Source of the DNA: a bacterium
GTDB lineage: Bacteria > JAMCPX01
Direction: 5' to 3'
Length of the DNA: 37,986 nucleotides
NCBI GenBank assembly: GCA_021792615.1
Contig: JAJYUJ010000024.1
Coordinates: forward strand, 1 to 37,986
Part shown: piece by piece, positions 22,671-28,753 of the stretch
How the letters are laid out: every line of letters starts with the position of its first letter
Numbering within the stretch: position 1 is the stretch's first letter
Made by a program: the position numbers and the translations under genes
Notes under the pieces: generated by a model
What the model was told of the DNA's origin: nothing
Database searches by the model: none
The model's input: only the letters and a program-made list of their open reading frames with translations

Positions 22671-23567
22671 TTAATCACAGGGGTTCAATGTGATCTGTTT
22701 GCCGTTCAGCAATGCAACATCGCTGCACAGGCTGTTCGACACATAGGACAGATCGTAGGTGCCTATTATGCTATTATCGCTGTCCCTTGTCAGGGTGATG
22801 TTCAGAGAGCCGTTTACGGGATGACAACAGCCTGCCCCCAGGGTGATATTTGATGCGCTGACTGCCGCGGTAACTTTGGCAAGTTCGTGATCAACCGTTC
22901 CGCTGCCATTCAATATACGCTGGGTTACGGTAGTGCCTGAGACAGTATCAGAATACGTAAAATTCAGAGAGATGAGATGATGCATGAGCATCCTGCCAAC
23001 GGGGGATAATGCTATACGCTCTTCATTCACGCTCACCGTCCTTGTTGCGGCCGATAAAGTAGTGCCTGACCAGGAAAACGTTTTCATGACATCGGTTGTA
23101 CCGCTTATTGACAGCGATGCACCGTCCCACCTGGTCCTTACAATTGCTTGTTGTGCATCAATGGTTTCCGATGTGATTTTACCGGTCGTTGAATCTGTAA
23201 ACAGCGTAACGGTCATACTGATTGTTCCGGATGTCGTTACTGCGGCAAATCCATCGGTAGGTACACAACCATTACCGAAGTCGATCAGCACCGTATACGT
23301 AGAAGGATTTTGTCTAATAAGAGTTGGCTTAATCTGAGGACATGATGAACTGGCCCCCAGGGCATCCAAACTCAATATGCTAACGCCCGCCTGGCTGTTT
23401 CCAACAGATGAAATGGCAATCGCATCACCGGCCGATGAACTTACGGATCCCTCCGTTGTTTGATTGATAGACGTTGTATCAAGCCCCGTTGTTTGTTTCC
23501 CGCACCCTGTCATTTGAAAACCGACAAACCCTAAAACCGCAATAACCGTTAGAACTTTTTTTAACAT
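22671..23567 (-). CDS. Predicted exported lipoprotein of unknown function
   Basis: I do not recognise the family. The 298-residue protein has a lipoprotein signal: positively charged start, hydrophobic stretch and lipobox QMTGC with the lipid-bearing Cys22. The mature part is Ser/Thr-rich and beta-rich, like a secreted beta-sandwich. It has several Cys residues, including a CysCys pair in LGAGCCHPVNG and others in SSCPQ, NGCVP, SLCSD and LNPCD at the very end, so disulfides or metal binding are possible. AGGAGG precedes the ATG at 8 nt. A GGAACTT-type ECF promoter lies just upstream, and a strong terminator follows. It is therefore its own transcript, probably controlled by the sigma factor encoded 1.3 kb upstream in the same cluster. 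Confidence 0.75.
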   Translation of the reverse strand: MLKKVLTVIAVLGFVGFQMTGCGKQTTGLDTTSINQTTEGSVSSSAGDAIAISSVGNSQAGVSILSLDALGASSSCPQIKPTLIRQNPSTYTVLIDFGNGCVPTDGFAAVTTSGTISMTVTLFTDSTTGKITSETIDAQQAIVRTRWDGASLSISGTTDVMKTFSWSGTTLSAATRTVSVNEERIALSPVGRMLMHHLISLNFTYSDTVSGTTVTQRILNGSGTVDHELAKVTAAVSASNITLGAGCCHPVNGSLNITLTRDSDNSIIGTYDLSYVSNSLCSDVALLNGKQITLNPCD

Positions 23568-23591: not shown

Positions 23592-23619
23592 TTCAACAGG
23601 TGAAGCGAGAAAAAGTTCC
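23592..23619 (-). promoter_or_regulatory. Candidate ECF-sigma promoter of the lipoprotein gene
   Basis: GGAACTT (23619-23613), 16 nt, TTGAA (23596-23592) on the minus strand. The -35 is identical to the one before the sigma gene and to the RpoE-type GGAACTT element. The predicted start near 23585 leaves room for the AGGAGG site at 23581-23576. Confidence 0.5.
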
Positions 23620-23643: not shown

Positions 23644-24153
23644 TTATGGCTTTTTCCGGAGCCTTTCTCTGGTGATGCCCCTCAGCTTTTCTCTCTGTTC
23701 CGGGGTCAGGCCTTTCCAGATAAGGTATTTCCTTCTGAGCATCTCCTTTTGCCGGGGAGACAGAGATCGGTATATCTCATAATTTCTGAGGATCATCTGC
23801 CTTCTGGCAGGAGGCAGCTTCAGCCAGCGTTCATAGGAATGAACTATCAACCGTTTTTTTTCTTCAGGCAAGCTCTGGAATAATCGATAGTTCTTCAAAA
23901 TACTATCGCGCTGCTGCTGCGGCATGGATTTGAACAGCATATAATTGTGCATAATCCGTTCCTGCTTCTGTTCCGGCAAAGACTCCCAGCGTTTATACAT
24001 CCGTCTTAATTCCTGTCTCTTTTCGGGACTTAACTGCTCCCACCGGCTTTGTGCGTCCCGAGTTGCGGTGCTTGTTATAACAGTTCCGGCAAGCACCTGT
24101 GATGACAGCATCATACATGCAGAGATAAACAATAAATATTTTAAATATTTCAT
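23644..24153 (-). CDS. Exported DUF3106 protein with seven 18-residue repeats
   Basis: The 169-residue protein has a signal peptide (cut probably after SSQVLA, residue 22). Residues 37-162 are seven back-to-back repeats of exactly 18 residues, for example RWESLPEQKQERIMHNYM and LFKSMPQQQRDSILKNYR, with the pattern aromatic-x-x-Leu-Pro/Ser-x-x-x-(R/K)-x-x-Ile/Leu-x-x-x-Tyr. This is the DUF3106 type of sequence; the function of that family is not known. Each unit should make a helix with a Pro-led cap, giving an elongated basic rod in the periplasm. AGGAGG precedes the ATG, which overlaps the stop of the small exported protein by 4 bp, so it is the last gene of the sigma/anti-sigma operon. Confidence 0.85.
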   Translation of the reverse strand: MKYLKYLLFISACMMLSSQVLAGTVITSTATRDAQSRWEQLSPEKRQELRRMYKRWESLPEQKQERIMHNYMLFKSMPQQQRDSILKNYRLFQSLPEEKKRLIVHSYERWLKLPPARRQMILRNYEIYRSLSPRQKEMLRRKYLIWKGLTPEQREKLRGITRERLRKKP

Positions 24154-24386
24154 TTTTTGTCCTCCTGTTCGAAAACATTCATGTGCTCGTACATGTCCAT
24201 ATGTTCATACATGCTCATATTCTCAAGTATATCGAGGTGCTTCAAAATTTCCTTATCTTCGTTCGACCGTTGCCGTTCTATCGCCGGTGTGGTTTGGGTG
24301 ACTGCAGTCGTACCGGTGATCGGCGATGCATGGAGTATAAAGGGCAAGCCAAAGCCCATAAACAGAAGCAAAGAATAAAATCTCAT
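24150..24386 (-). CDS. Small exported protein with Met/His hexapeptide repeats
   Basis: A 78-residue protein that I do not recognise as a named family. Residues 1-20 are a signal peptide (cut likely after LHA). After a Thr-rich linker, residues 45-74 are five hexads: KEILKH, LDILEN, MSMYEH, MDMYEH, MNVFEQ. Consensus M-D-M-Y-E-H puts Met at positions 1 and 3 and His at 6. The same hexads stand in the periplasmic tail of the anti-sigma factor encoded just upstream. Start and stop codons overlap those of both neighbours by 4 bp, so expression is coupled. Met/His-rich periplasmic repeats often bind Cu(I) or Ag(I); a protein-protein contact between the two repeat regions is the other reading. Confidence 0.78.
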   Translation of the reverse strand: MRFYSLLLFMGFGLPFILHASPITGTTAVTQTTPAIERQRSNEDKEILKHLDILENMSMYEHMDMYEHMNVFEQEDKK

Positions 24387-24904
24387 TTTACCACTCCGGA
24401 ATTGTTCCCTGTATCCCGATCTACCGTCATGACCTCTTTCATGTGTTCTATCATATCCATGTGCTCATAGAGGTCCATATGCCGGTACATATCCATGGAC
24501 GCAAACATCGTTTCAGACTGTCGGGCGTTGTGGCCATGTCTTTTTATACCGAAGGTCAGGGTAATTGCTGCTATAACAATAAAAACGGATGACAGGATAT
24601 AGACCCATGCATGCGGGTGCGCCTTTGCACTCCGCCTGTTTTGCATTGCCGGACTCCCGCTGTTTATTATCGCACTGTCAATCTTCTGTTTCAGACTGTC
24701 CGGAGGCATAAGAGACGGCACTGCCTTTATCGTTCGATCGAGACGCAGCAGTTGTTCCAGATACGCCTTTGCCTCAGGGCATTGCTCAAGCAGACGTATG
24801 ACCTTCGTCCGGGTCACCCTGTCCAATGCACCATCACTGTAGGCTGAGATCCACCTTTTGGAAAAGTAAACCCGGATGCTACATAGCAGCGTTTTTATAT
24901 TCAT
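24383..24904 (-). CDS. Membrane anti-sigma-factor-like protein with degenerate zinc domain and Met/His tail
   Basis: About 173 residues. The N-terminal 60 residues (WISAYSDGALDRVTRTKVIRLLEQCPEAKAYLEQLL in two steps) match the helical anti-sigma fold of zf-HC2 proteins, but the zinc ligands HxxxCxxC are missing except for the one Cys. One membrane helix lies at about 100-120. The tail outside the membrane has hexads MDMYRH, MDLYEH, MDMIEH from residue 137, the same repeat as in the next gene. The ATG at 24904 is preferred over 24913 because GGGAG lies 10 nt before it. It overlaps the end of the sigma gene, the usual position of the cognate anti-sigma factor. I infer that it holds the sigma factor until a periplasmic signal reaches the tail. 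Confidence 0.8.
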   Translation of the reverse strand: MNIKTLLCSIRVYFSKRWISAYSDGALDRVTRTKVIRLLEQCPEAKAYLEQLLRLDRTIKAVPSLMPPDSLKQKIDSAIINSGSPAMQNRRSAKAHPHAWVYILSSVFIVIAAITLTFGIKRHGHNARQSETMFASMDMYRHMDLYEHMDMIEHMKEVMTVDRDTGNNSGVVK

Positions 24905-25424
24905 GTAATACATTCTCCCTTGCCCTGCTTAAGAGCGATTTGACGGCCTTTTCGCTGACCTGCAGTACTGCGGCTATTTCCTGATAGTCCATACCCTCAT
25001 AACTTCTCAGGAGCAGTGCCGTCCTTTGATTCTCAGGCAGGTTGCCGATAATCTTTAATAGGTTTTGTTCCATATTTCCAAACACAGCATGTTCTTCCGT
25101 CGATAGCGTGTTGTCCTGCGCCGAATTGTCGTCAAACATCTCCGCATGCCGTGTTTTATGATGCTCGTTTATGGCGAGGTTCGTTGCAATGGTGAAGAGC
25201 CATGTCGAGAACCTTGCCGTTGGCTCATAGCTTTTTGCTGACGTATACATTCTTACAAATACCTCCTGCGTAACATCCTCGGATGAATACCTGTTGCCAA
25301 GGTACCGGAATATGTAGTTGTAGATGCGGATTTTGAACCTGGCGTAGAGTTCATCAAATGCAGCCCTATCGCCGTTTTTAAGCCTGAGCATTGTTTTTGT
25401 ATCTTCATCCATCTCATCTCTCAT
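24879..25424 (-). CDS. ECF (sigma-70 family group 4) RNA polymerase sigma factor
   Basis: A 181-residue RpoE-like sigma factor. Region 2 spans about 18-88, with FDELYARFKIRIYNYIFRYL, the DVTQEVFVRMY core-binding segment and ARFSTWLFTIATNLA. Region 4 spans about 125-175, with LPENQRTALLLRSYEGMDYQ and EIAAVLQVSEKAVKSLLSRAR as the helix-turn-helix that reads the -35 box. No region 3 is present, as in all ECF factors. An alternative start is the Met at 25412, which would fit the predicted transcription start better. The gene is preceded by a GGAACTT-type promoter that it may recognise itself, and followed by an overlapping anti-sigma gene. The signal it answers to is not known. Confidence 0.93.
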   Translation of the reverse strand: MRDEMDEDTKTMLRLKNGDRAAFDELYARFKIRIYNYIFRYLGNRYSSEDVTQEVFVRMYTSAKSYEPTARFSTWLFTIATNLAINEHHKTRHAEMFDDNSAQDNTLSTEEHAVFGNMEQNLLKIIGNLPENQRTALLLRSYEGMDYQEIAAVLQVSEKAVKSLLSRARENVLHEYKNAAM

Positions 25425-25427
25425 ATT

Positions 25428-25455
25428 TTAAACCACGCAAACTGAAAAAAGTTCC
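25428..25455 (-). promoter_or_regulatory. Candidate autoregulated ECF-sigma promoter
   Basis: GGAACTT (25455-25449), 16 nt, TTTAA (25432-25428) on the minus strand, beginning 5 nt after the stop of the outer-membrane protein gene. It has the same -35 and spacing as the promoter of the lipoprotein gene. The start site would fall at about 25421, inside the first ATG, favouring the Met codon at 25412. Confidence 0.5.
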
Positions 25456-25460
25456 GAATT

Positions 25461-26903
25461 TTACCATTTAATATCGGCGCCGAACAATACCTGGTATATA
25501 CTCGATATTGCGTAGCCTTGAAAAAAAGCCCCGGGCGAGAAATAATCTATTTCAAACGGCAGGGAAAGATACCTGTTCAACAAGTAAGTAAAGGTGAAGT
25601 CCGTTTCGAAGCCGTATGCCTTGTCCGTTATTTCAGGATAGAGGAGAACAGGGGTAAGGGTGAAGTCTATGTATTTTACCGGATATACATCTATGATCCC
25701 TCCATAAGCGACGTCGCCAAGACCCCTTCTTCCGGCCATCGACAGGGTACCGGTGTTAATGTTCTGATTGATGCCTCCGTTGAAAAATAAAGACGATTCC
25801 GTATTGTAGGGAAAAATTGCAATAAAACTATCCAGTGTACCCTGCTTTAAGATAGCCTGTGCAGGTGTTTTGTCTCCCGACGACAGATTAAAAAATATGC
25901 CGACGGTTGCTTTGTCCCCTATGTGATATTTTATTTTTGCATCCGCAACGTATCCGTAGGTATGAAAATGCCTCTCGAATGGTGCGGAAGAATCGAAACA
26001 ATTGTTTCCCTGTATACTGCCGCTGCCCATTTCGAGTATACCGGTCAGATTTATTTCAAAAGAACCGAAGTATCTGTCTCCGGTAATACCCGTCCAGTTG
26101 ACAGAACTTTCCGAGGAATGGATTGGTCCTCCGTTAGCATATTCCTGCTGAAGACACAGAAGGATACGTGCCGCCCTTATTTTCCCGTATTTACCGACAA
26201 GGGCATCGTATTCGGTACGGTTGAAGAGTGTAGAATAAATGATATTGTTCAGCATCGGTGCAAGTGTATTGTCCGTGTCTTCGAAGTTCGAATAGAATAC
26301 TGTAATATATTCGAACAATGAAAAATTATAACTGAGTTCCGCATCATAGAACATGCTTGTCCTCGAAGGATCGTAAAGCTTGTATGGTTCAACCTTGACC
26401 GCATTGAATTCAAAGGAGAGCGGAATATCGAGCGCATCGGTCATATCATAATCAAAGGTCAACGACGGCTGGTAGTTGTCGAAGAGGAGGCGGGAACCGC
26501 CGACGATCTCTCTTTCTCCGGCATAAAAATTGGTCGATTCATCGGGACTAAAATTAACATACGCCTGGCGGATAAAGTAGGTGTCATTAAAATAATCGTT
26601 CTCAGTTTCAACACCGTAAAGTTCGAGGCTGTTCTGTGAGAACGTTCTTGGAGATAATTCGCCCGAATATAATTCGAATGCTGCATTAAACCATTCGCCC
26701 TGAGCAAGATAAAGCTGCGGCATAAGGTATGCTGCTGCAAAACCTGCATCGGGATATTTGACACCGGGATTGAGGAGCGACAGGTTCTGTCCTGTCTGGT
26801 ATCTCAGGCTTACAGCCCCGGTTGAAGCCGCAGAGAAGGCATAGACATTCGTTGTAACAATTTCTATGAAAAGTAAAATCAAGAGGCCTGATTTAATCCG
26901 CAT
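25461..26903 (-). CDS. Predicted outer-membrane beta-barrel protein
   Basis: I do not recognise a named family. The 480-residue protein has a signal peptide (MRIKSGLLILLFIEIVTTNV, cut after VYA near residue 22) and a mature part of alternating aromatic/polar strands (for example YFIRQAYVNFSPD, FYAGEREIVGGSRLLFDNY, FEINLTGILEMGSG), ending in FGADIKW with a terminal aromatic residue. The features GEREIVGGSRLLFDN and the overall layout resemble AlgE-like (alginate export) porins. It stands directly upstream of the sigma gene (36-nt gap to 25424) and could be cotranscribed with it, but the ECF promoter between them allows separate control. A sigma-70-type promoter ends 9 nt before its ATG and there is no ribosome site. 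Confidence 0.8.
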   Translation of the reverse strand: MRIKSGLLILLFIEIVTTNVYAFSAASTGAVSLRYQTGQNLSLLNPGVKYPDAGFAAAYLMPQLYLAQGEWFNAAFELYSGELSPRTFSQNSLELYGVETENDYFNDTYFIRQAYVNFSPDESTNFYAGEREIVGGSRLLFDNYQPSLTFDYDMTDALDIPLSFEFNAVKVEPYKLYDPSRTSMFYDAELSYNFSLFEYITVFYSNFEDTDNTLAPMLNNIIYSTLFNRTEYDALVGKYGKIRAARILLCLQQEYANGGPIHSSESSVNWTGITGDRYFGSFEINLTGILEMGSGSIQGNNCFDSSAPFERHFHTYGYVADAKIKYHIGDKATVGIFFNLSSGDKTPAQAILKQGTLDSFIAIFPYNTESSLFFNGGINQNINTGTLSMAGRRGLGDVAYGGIIDVYPVKYIDFTLTPVLLYPEITDKAYGFETDFTFTYLLNRYLSLPFEIDYFSPGAFFQGYAISSIYQVLFGADIKW

Positions 26904-26947: not shown

Positions 26948-28753
26948 TTATCGTCTGTGAAAAAATTTTTCAATCTCTGCTTTTGGCAGGAGGAACACGA
27001 ACGGCCTTCCGTGAGGGCAGTTGAGAGGTATGCCGAGCTGGTCGAGCTGCCCGAAAAGCGCCCGTATCTTCTCAACGGGCAGAAAATCACCTGCTCTCGC
27101 TGCGCTCTTACAGGCTACGTCTGCCATAATCCTGTAGAGAGGGTCTGTTTTCTGATCCGCGGTGAGTTCCGTATGACTTGTTCCATCCGTACGCATGCTG
27201 TTGTCGATAAGCTCAATTAAGGACAACGGGGAAAACACCGTACCGGCGGGTATTGCTCGTACCGTCACGCTGTTGCGTCCGGTTGTTAGCTCATAGCCTA
27301 TGGTACGCAGGGTGTCCTGTACATCCGCAAGGACGCTCGTTCTGTTTTCGTTCAAAAATATCTCCTGCGGTACGGTCAGAAATTGAGACTGCCTCTGTCT
27401 TACCCGTGAGTTTTTTAGAAGCTGTTCGAACAGGATCCTTTCGTGCATTGCATGCTGATCTATCAAAACCATACTGTCCGGAGACGATGCAACGATGTAG
27501 GTTGCGTTGAATTGTGCATGGATATCCAAAGCCGAGAATTCTCCCTTTTGTATGATGGTCTGCTGATCGTCTGCCGCAGAATTCATGGAAACGCCCGGTT
27601 TTGCGCCGTAGGGGGTAGAAAAGATACGGGTCTTTTTCGATGTACCATATCCGGTAGAGGTTGTGCTGCCGTGCAGAAACGACGTTCTATATGACTCAAC
27701 TGATTCTTTTATCTCTTCTTTGAATCTGTTTTTATCCATCCCGGGATCAGGAGATGCGTATACAATGGCTCTTTTATTGATCGAATCCCTTATTGCATTT
27801 CGAATAGCATCATAGACCATTGATTTATCGGCGAACTTTACAGCGGTTTTCGTAGGGTTAATGTTCACATCGACGAAATTATGGGGCAGGAACAGATTAA
27901 TGACAGCAACGGGATACCGGCCTTTTTGAAGCGCTGTTGAGTATGCGTTTGTGATACTGAAATTGAGTGATTTATCCATGATATATCTCCCGTTCACGAA
28001 CACGTACATCAACCGTGAGGAATTCGTGGTATAATCAGGATCTGATATATATCCGTCGACCTTTATAATACCGTTATCAAAAGATACGTCATATAACTTG
28101 TTCTTCAGTCCCTGATCGATTCGCAATATTGTCCTGGCTTCAAGCGGGGCCGGCTGGATAGTAAAGACCTCTTTCCCGTTATTCATGACCCGTATGCCTG
28201 CATTTTTATATCCAAACACAAACCTGTCTATAACATCCAGACACGCACGGTATTCGGACTGAGCAGAACCGAGGAACTTTTTTCTTACCGGTGTGTTGAA
28301 AAAGAGGTTTGATACGGTTACCGTTGTCCCTGCATCATGAGCCGTTTTCGATGTGTTCACGACATCGCCGCCCCTCACGTGAATAATCGTGCCGGTGTCC
28401 TCTCGTTTGTGCCGGGTCACAATCTCCAACTCGGAGATGACGCCGATACTGTAGAGCGCTTCCCCTCTGAAACCGAGTGTGGAAATATCATAAAGCTCGT
28501 TTTCCGTGTGGAGCTTGCTCGTCGTATGCCGTTGTACCGCAAGCCTGGCATCTTCGGACAGCATGCCCTGGCCGTTATCCTCAATGCGTATCAGGTCTAT
28601 GCCGCCGTTTTTGAGCTCGATATTGATAGTGGTCGCACCTGCGTCTATAGCATTCTCCATGAGTTCTTTTACAATGGATGCAGGCCTTTCTATCACTTCG
28701 CCCGCAGCTATTTTGCTGACCAGTTCATCGGATAGTTTATTTATGATCCCCAT
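26948..28753 (-). CDS. mutL: DNA mismatch repair protein MutL
   Basis: MutL couples mismatch recognition by MutS to strand incision. The 601-residue protein has the GHKL ATPase at the N-terminus: INKLSDELVSKIAAGEVIERP, the Mg-binding Asn/Asp motif ELMENAIDAGAT, IEDNGQGM and TLGFRGEALYSI, then the NINPTKTAVKF segment that carries the conserved lysine of the transducer domain. A variable linker runs from about 330 to 410. The C-terminal dimerisation domain has VLIDQHAMHERILFEQLL and ends in ACKSAARAGD...CPHGRPFVF. The QHAMHERI segment resembles DQHAxxER, and CPHGRP is a metal-site motif of MutL endonucleases; the full DQHAx2Ex4E motif reads DQHAMHERILFE, so endonuclease activity is likely. mutS is not in the window. 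Confidence 0.96.
   Translation of the reverse strand: MGIINKLSDELVSKIAAGEVIERPASIVKELMENAIDAGATTINIELKNGGIDLIRIEDNGQGMLSEDARLAVQRHTTSKLHTENELYDISTLGFRGEALYSIGVISELEIVTRHKREDTGTIIHVRGGDVVNTSKTAHDAGTTVTVSNLFFNTPVRKKFLGSAQSEYRACLDVIDRFVFGYKNAGIRVMNNGKEVFTIQPAPLEARTILRIDQGLKNKLYDVSFDNGIIKVDGYISDPDYTTNSSRLMYVFVNGRYIMDKSLNFSITNAYSTALQKGRYPVAVINLFLPHNFVDVNINPTKTAVKFADKSMVYDAIRNAIRDSINKRAIVYASPDPGMDKNRFKEEIKESVESYRTSFLHGSTTSTGYGTSKKTRIFSTPYGAKPGVSMNSAADDQQTIIQKGEFSALDIHAQFNATYIVASSPDSMVLIDQHAMHERILFEQLLKNSRVRQRQSQFLTVPQEIFLNENRTSVLADVQDTLRTIGYELTTGRNSVTVRAIPAGTVFSPLSLIELIDNSMRTDGTSHTELTADQKTDPLYRIMADVACKSAARAGDFLPVEKIRALFGQLDQLGIPLNCPHGRPFVFLLPKAEIEKFFHRR

Follow-up and report, generated by a model that had tools for sequence, protein, structure and literature searches.

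Results

Gene content of the locus

The genes analysed here all lie on the minus strand of the window, by which we mean the whole stretch of 37,986 nucleotides under study, and their transcription order is barrel, sigma factor, anti-sigma factor, small exported protein and DUF3106 protein. The first gene (25461..26903) encodes an outer-membrane beta-barrel-like protein and invariably sits directly before sigma in the bacterial family; in the domain profile search its match to Alginate_exp (0.0024) is below the cutoff. This position is kept in all seven family members whose assembled region extends that far. The next gene (24879..25424) encodes an ECF sigma factor, as it carries region 2 and region 4.2 domains only (Sigma70_r2, PF04542, 7.2e-17; Sigma70_r4_2, PF08281, 1e-18).

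The third open reading frame (24383..24913) encodes a membrane-bound anti-sigma factor with a cytoplasmic anti-sigma domain, one transmembrane segment and a periplasmic tail. Its start is likely at 24904, the second Met, where the relatives begin, in agreement with the start given in the preliminary description of this DNA. Its domain is of the RsiW/RsrA type, with profile matches in the PDB to RsiW (2.9e-8), RsrA (4.5e-5) and ChrR (0.0027) and a match to the NF052375 anti-sigma model (1.4e-6) that is below that model's cutoff, and the structure model places the transmembrane segment in a long helix (residues 102-144). The H-x3-C-x2-C site of zinc-binding zf-HC2 anti-sigma factors is absent from the window protein, which reads LLEQCPEA, with a single Cys left, versus HLxxCxxC in distant homologues. 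The HxxxCxxC zinc site is lost in the anti-sigma factors of this family and kept by most distant homologues of the same module.

Downstream lies the gene for a small exported protein of 78 amino acids (24150..24386). Its N-terminus looks, on inspection by eye, like a signal peptide, and the protein is conserved in every family member that has this region. It overlaps both of its neighbours by 4 nt, and the anti-sigma factor, the small protein and the DUF3106 protein are probably translated together. The DUF3106 protein (23644..24153; PF11304, 4.7e-21) is exported, consists of basic 18-residue repeats and is a clear member of its family, scoring 75.7 bits with a cutoff of 24.3. Beyond it, an exported lipoprotein-like protein (22671..23567) is a predicted target of the sigma factor, on the strength of a promoter motif upstream and of synteny.

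Two proteins of the operon share a hexad repeat

The anti-sigma tail contains three hexads, MDMYRH, MDLYEH and MDMIEH (residues 140-157; 24443..24496), and the small protein four, LDILEN, MSMYEH, MDMYEH and MNVFEQ, contiguous and in register (residues 51-74; 24165..24236). The preliminary description had proposed that both proteins carry the same six-residue repeat, and the repeat is real. Shuffling the last 62 residues equalled the observed chain in 0.16% of trials for the anti-sigma factor and in 0 of 5000 for the small protein, and a genome-wide search with the anti-sigma query picks up the small ORF through the repeat, with E values of 0.0015 in the window genome and 2e-4 in G004 and the same weak match in G002, G003, G006 and G008. 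Because the codons of the units differ synonymously (TAT/TAC, GAA/GAG, CAT/CAC), the pattern is not a fresh DNA duplication and appears to be old and maintained at the protein level. Membership in the LED repeat family (PF20854) is not supported, with 17.9 bits versus a cutoff of 59. The same description had counted three weaker units in the small protein; two of them are clean, while the third, probably KEILKH, has Lys at position 1.

Hydrophobic residues in the hexads recur with a period of 3.0 (a peak at 120 degrees and not at 100), unlike those of a plain amphipathic helix or a heptad coiled coil. The structure model of the anti-sigma factor makes its tail helical with a low pLDDT of about 58. 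Met at positions 1 and 3 and His at position 6 had been read as a regular ladder of soft-metal ligands. In its strict form this ladder breaks down within the window itself, as position 3 of anti-sigma unit 2 is Leu, and in the small protein units 1 and 4 are each missing the His together with one Met or both.

The repeat is conserved in the family, its putative ligands largely are not

Eight related genomes (G001-G008) were compared. The cluster is present in seven of them, with no clear match in G001, a fragmented assembly, and the gene order from the barrel to DUF3106 is constant wherever the contigs reach. As the contig of G003 ends within the anti-sigma gene, the comparison comprises seven tails, that of the window included, and eight small proteins. 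The shared repeat is conserved across the whole family, which points to a common partner or to a mutual interaction, as first supposed. In the tails, hexad position 1 is M, I or L and position 3 is M or L; the His of unit 1 changes to N or R, and those of units 2 and 3 do not vary among the seven sequenced members. In the small proteins, the unit-2 His is replaced by Q or D in 3 of 8 members and the unit-3 His by Y in 6 of 8. Met positions vary among M, L, I, V and F, and the G005 small protein (LDMFRN INVYKD FNLYRY INVFDQ) is without nearly all Met and His in units 2-4. At the level of the sequences, then, the family hexads keep hydrophobicity and not the putative ligands, two tail His excepted; Met and His vary among relatives with much of the freedom that would speak against a soft-metal ladder.

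The repeat extends beyond the family and is linked to DUF3106

Of 290 diverse genomes, 36 carry DUF3106, as do 56 of 247 genomes from the phylum to which one of those 36 belongs. Distant loci show the same arrangement upstream of DUF3106, with anti-sigma tails such as LELIENYELIQDLELLEN, IDVLEQLDLLQDLELLQDLDLLQD and MEVLENMELLEQMEMLEV and small proteins such as EIIDNLDILLDYELIDKLDLIENYDIL. The three hexads align ungapped and in one register in 25 anti-sigma factors of several bacterial families, and the small proteins of 22 loci have a common EDxEII-x-x-LD-x-LE start plus hexads. Outside the family the six positions are occupied by L/M, D/E, L, L/I, E/Q and N/D/E, giving LDLLEN-like units. The combination of Met at position 1 or 3 with His at position 6 occurs in 21 of 50 units in the family versus 0 of 147 in distant loci, and the full set M1-M3-H6 in 14 of 50 versus 0 of 147. 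The repeat therefore lacks the conserved Met/His ligand pairs that would mark a SilE-like metal binder, and a conserved metal ladder as the general function of the repeat was rejected on the residue exchanges within the family and in distant relatives. The anti-sigma factors of some distant loci (L078, L071 and L076) themselves bear the EExII-x-NLE start that otherwise characterises the small protein, so that the two look like variants of a single segment.

The gene that consistently accompanies the repeat, overlooked in the preliminary description, is DUF3106. A profile of the small protein matched in 18 of the 290 genomes, all of them carrying DUF3106, and in 17 of these the match is beside DUF3106 (within about 1.3 kb, same strand). 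Twelve of the 18 had supplied rows of the profile; among the six that had not, five have the match beside DUF3106. When an acidic hexad pair plus a hydrophobic segment was required, acidic hexads were counted in 112 of 2909 ORFs in DUF3106 loci (duplicates included) and in 0 of 782 ORFs in the 24 DUF3106-free loci retrieved around other ECF or anti-sigma relatives. At least one hexad protein occurs in 51 of 76 usable distinct DUF3106 loci under a strict automatic rule, a lower bound, since the rule overlooks visible cases such as the small proteins of L004, L006 and L007; in the loci outside these 51, the tails are degenerate or absent. In many loci a hexad anti-sigma factor runs straight into DUF3106 with no small protein between them (for example L105, L117, L122, L125 and L127), and among the DUF3106 loci examined none clearly has the small protein without a hexad tail. 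The anti-sigma tail and DUF3106 therefore form the constant core, and the small protein is an accessory that resembles the anti-sigma tail.

The DUF3106 protein is predicted to be a basic solenoid

Copies of the DUF3106 motif are spaced exactly 18 residues apart (221 pairs at this spacing, the next multiples being 36 and 54), with a repeat consensus of about LPPEERxRLRRRYRRWKS. The model of the window protein (pLDDT 92.6) predicts an alpha-solenoid with one helix per repeat, the helices starting near residues 43, 61, 79, 97, 115, 133 and 151, and no solved structure matches it in a Foldseek search of the PDB (best E 2.0). All 73 loci compared have a net positive repeat region, with +2.8 charges per 18 residues versus about -4 for the hexads. 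This opposite charge is not specific evidence for docking, and covariation of charge between DUF3106 and tail across loci is not significant (rho -0.23, p 0.21). Three hexads span 18 residues, the length of one DUF3106 repeat, a match that is suggestive only.

A promoter motif points to autoregulation and to further targets

A predicted ECF promoter, GGAACTTT-N14-GTTTAA, lies 31 nt before the sigma gene (25428..25455, minus strand), and each of the seven family members with this region has the motif GGAACTTT-N14-GTTNAA, with at most one mismatch, 31-35 nt ahead of sigma. We take this motif to have the form of an ECF promoter, and by it the sigma factor probably autoregulates its own operon. 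Exact copies number 14 in nine genomes versus 2 for the reversed control. Allowing one mismatch adds many sites, about as many as the reversed control gives, and such sites were used only before genes that were already implicated.

A predicted promoter of the same type (23592..23619, minus strand) precedes the lipoprotein gene; the window genome and five relatives have the motif, with at most two mismatches, 48-53 nt ahead of this gene. Two further genes outside the window belong to the predicted regulon. One encodes an exported protein of 85 residues (L158:1561-1815, G000:C23); the window genome, G001 and G002 have the motif 57-60 nt before it, G008 has a weaker one and G004 none. The other encodes a ZraP-like exported protein (L169:1551-1979, G000:C56), with the motif 50 nt upstream in G000 and G004. 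G001 and G006 each have a one-mismatch copy where it would be expected, and G007 has a variant whose spacer is one base shorter. The ZraP-like assignment is a weak one (NF008584, E 0.03) and draws in part on the pattern of the helical segment. Met, His and Cys abound in the tail of this protein (GMRHGMMGQGM...MMSCPC), which is kept in G004 and largely in G007.

Discussion

We propose that this operon encodes an autoregulated envelope-stress module of the RseA/RseB kind, in which the anti-sigma tail docks on the DUF3106 protein and the small protein acts as a soluble copy of the tail; we put the probability of this reading at roughly 0.55. It builds on the observed gene content, its conservation, the linkage to DUF3106, the opposite charges and the promoter motif, and a predicted regulon of exported proteins, one of them ZraP-like, is in keeping with it. 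The hexad, [LM][DE][LM][LIYF][EQ][NHD], would be an acidic-hydrophobic docking motif in the periplasmic tail, and its most likely partner would be the neighbouring basic alpha-solenoid. Docked on the tail, DUF3106 may guard the anti-sigma factor as RseB guards RseA. Envelope stress, or more free hexad protein, would then pull DUF3106 off the tail, upon which the anti-sigma factor would be lost and sigma released. The Met, Tyr and His at hexad positions are, in this reading, the family's version of the Leu/Ile and Asn/Asp found elsewhere and not a conserved metal site. The linkage to DUF3106 also fits a situation in which both hexad proteins bind another partner, for example a membrane protease.

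A different possibility is that the family has added soft-metal sensing to the module, its Met/His hexads binding Cu(I) or Ag(I) and the small protein buffering or donating the metal as an extra input. The Met content of the anti-sigma hexads is about fourfold that of distant homologues (0.23 vs 0.06) and that of the small protein nearly threefold (0.17 vs 0.06), an excess greater than in the cytoplasmic domain (0.033 vs 0.020); two tail His are invariant in the seven relatives, and M3-x-x-H6 has the spacing of the MX2H pattern that binds Ag+ in SilE peptides (PMC10080550). The Met-, His- and Cys-rich tail of the ZraP-like predicted target is the reason for keeping a metal or oxidant role in the family as a rival. 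However, within the family Met is swapped for Leu, Ile or Val and His for N, Q, D or Y, to the point that G005 has a small protein nearly devoid of ligands in units 2-4; distant versions of the same module have no Met/His pair, and among the genes behind the promoter motif none for copper or silver efflux was found. Taken together, we regard this explanation as unlikely. Given the two invariant His and the composition of the predicted target, a lineage-specific tuning to metal or oxidant is possible.

It could also be that tail and small protein zip onto each other directly and DUF3106 acts separately. Both bear the same repeat, and their Met content correlates across 25 loci (rho 0.60, p 0.0016), a correlation that is mostly shared ancestry because it is weak outside the family (rho 0.42, p 0.08). 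Met covariation between the partners was thus discarded as evidence, being driven by one family. Both segments are acidic (about -4 per 18 residues) and would repel each other, and many loci have the tail without the small protein, with none clearly the reverse, so we consider direct pairing quite improbable. A mutual coiled coil in particular was rejected on the like charge and the period of 3, which is ill-suited to a classical coiled coil.

Regulated proteolysis is the usual route by which membrane-bound anti-sigma factors are inactivated, as with RseA and DegS. The hexad tail may accordingly be imagined as the recognition site of a membrane protease, with the small protein as a competing substrate and DUF3106 as an unrelated chaperone of the same regulon. 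A competing substrate encoded in the same operon would provide feedback, but the near-exclusive physical linkage of the hexads to DUF3106 is left unexplained, and we give this reading little credence. The least probable of the alternatives is that the hexad Met (and Tyr/His) are oxidised by hypochlorite or similar agents, altering docking: Met enrichment is strongest in the exported hexads and the exported Met-rich peptides MrpX and BcrX offer an ECF-controlled precedent (PMC8315932), but no gene for a methionine sulfoxide reductase was seen either next to the cluster or behind the motif, and the small protein is poor in Met to an extent that differs between family members, as G005 shows.

Pairs of ECF sigma and anti-sigma factors, and exported third components, are already known kinds, and the proposed module can be placed among them. 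With RseA-RseB of the sigma-E system it shares an autoregulated ECF operon with a membrane-bound anti-sigma factor and an exported protein that would guard the periplasmic part of that factor. It differs in that the guard would be a basic 18-residue-repeat solenoid lacking a PDB fold match and homology to RseB, and in that the tail is a short repeat with an extra soluble copy. No gene of the operon matches the RseB families of Pfam, and the likeness is one of functional analogy only. The CnrYXH system for Ni/Co in Cupriavidus likewise combines an ECF sigma factor, a membrane-bound anti-sigma factor and a third periplasmic regulator in one operon. Here, however, no sensor of the CnrX/Metal_resist fold was detected in the operon, DUF3106 matching Metal_resist (PF13801) only below the cutoff (E 0.27) and Foldseek returning no CnrX/CpxP fold, and the ZraP-like protein is a predicted target instead. 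A kinship of DUF3106 with CpxP, Spy and CnrX was rejected, the hints being weak (CpxP 0.094 in addition to Metal_resist) and no fold matching.

The M-x-x-H spacing within MDMYEH recalls SilE and other Met/His silver sponges. Unlike in those, the ligands are not conserved among relatives, the repeat is a hydrophobic LDLLEN elsewhere, and no sil or cus genes were seen at the window locus. The SigF-NrsF-MrpX and BcrS-AbcS-BcrX systems are ECF systems too and include an exported peptide of Met-rich repeats. In these it is the target peptide that bears the Met-rich MXKDX repeat, with no repeat-sharing anti-sigma factor described in the part of that report consulted (PMC8315932), and the window locus has no MsrPQ.

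The claim that no described ECF system has such a shared repeat fits the open-access literature searched, in which we found no hexad shared by an anti-sigma factor and its neighbour and tied to DUF3106; the repeat itself is not unique to the window locus. DUF3106 (PF11304) is a common family of no described function, and neither it nor DUF3619 is mentioned in the open-access literature searched, an absence that is weak evidence. Finding one repeat in both the anti-sigma tail and a small exported protein next to DUF3106 yields a specific and cheap binding hypothesis that applies to the class as a whole, and the comparison of relatives corrects the tempting metal-ladder reading, which is mostly wrong. 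Tentatively, we speculate that these loci, spread over several bacterial families, may represent an undescribed class of ECF sensing, in which the DUF3106 solenoid would read a three-hexad tail, a diffusible copy encoded between the two would titrate the reader, and in this family the repeat would have been re-tuned with Met, Tyr and His to make docking respond to a soft metal or an oxidant.

With the promoter motif, a first set of targets of the sigma factor can be predicted. A perfect copy of the motif also lies inside mutL (window 28273-28300, plus strand), on the opposite strand and with no obvious gene start behind it; it is either a chance occurrence or an antisense promoter. Further copies recur in a conserved coding stretch resembling the glycyl-tRNA synthetase beta subunit (L156, L161, G000:C13 and G003:C340), probably as a coincidence of coding constraint.
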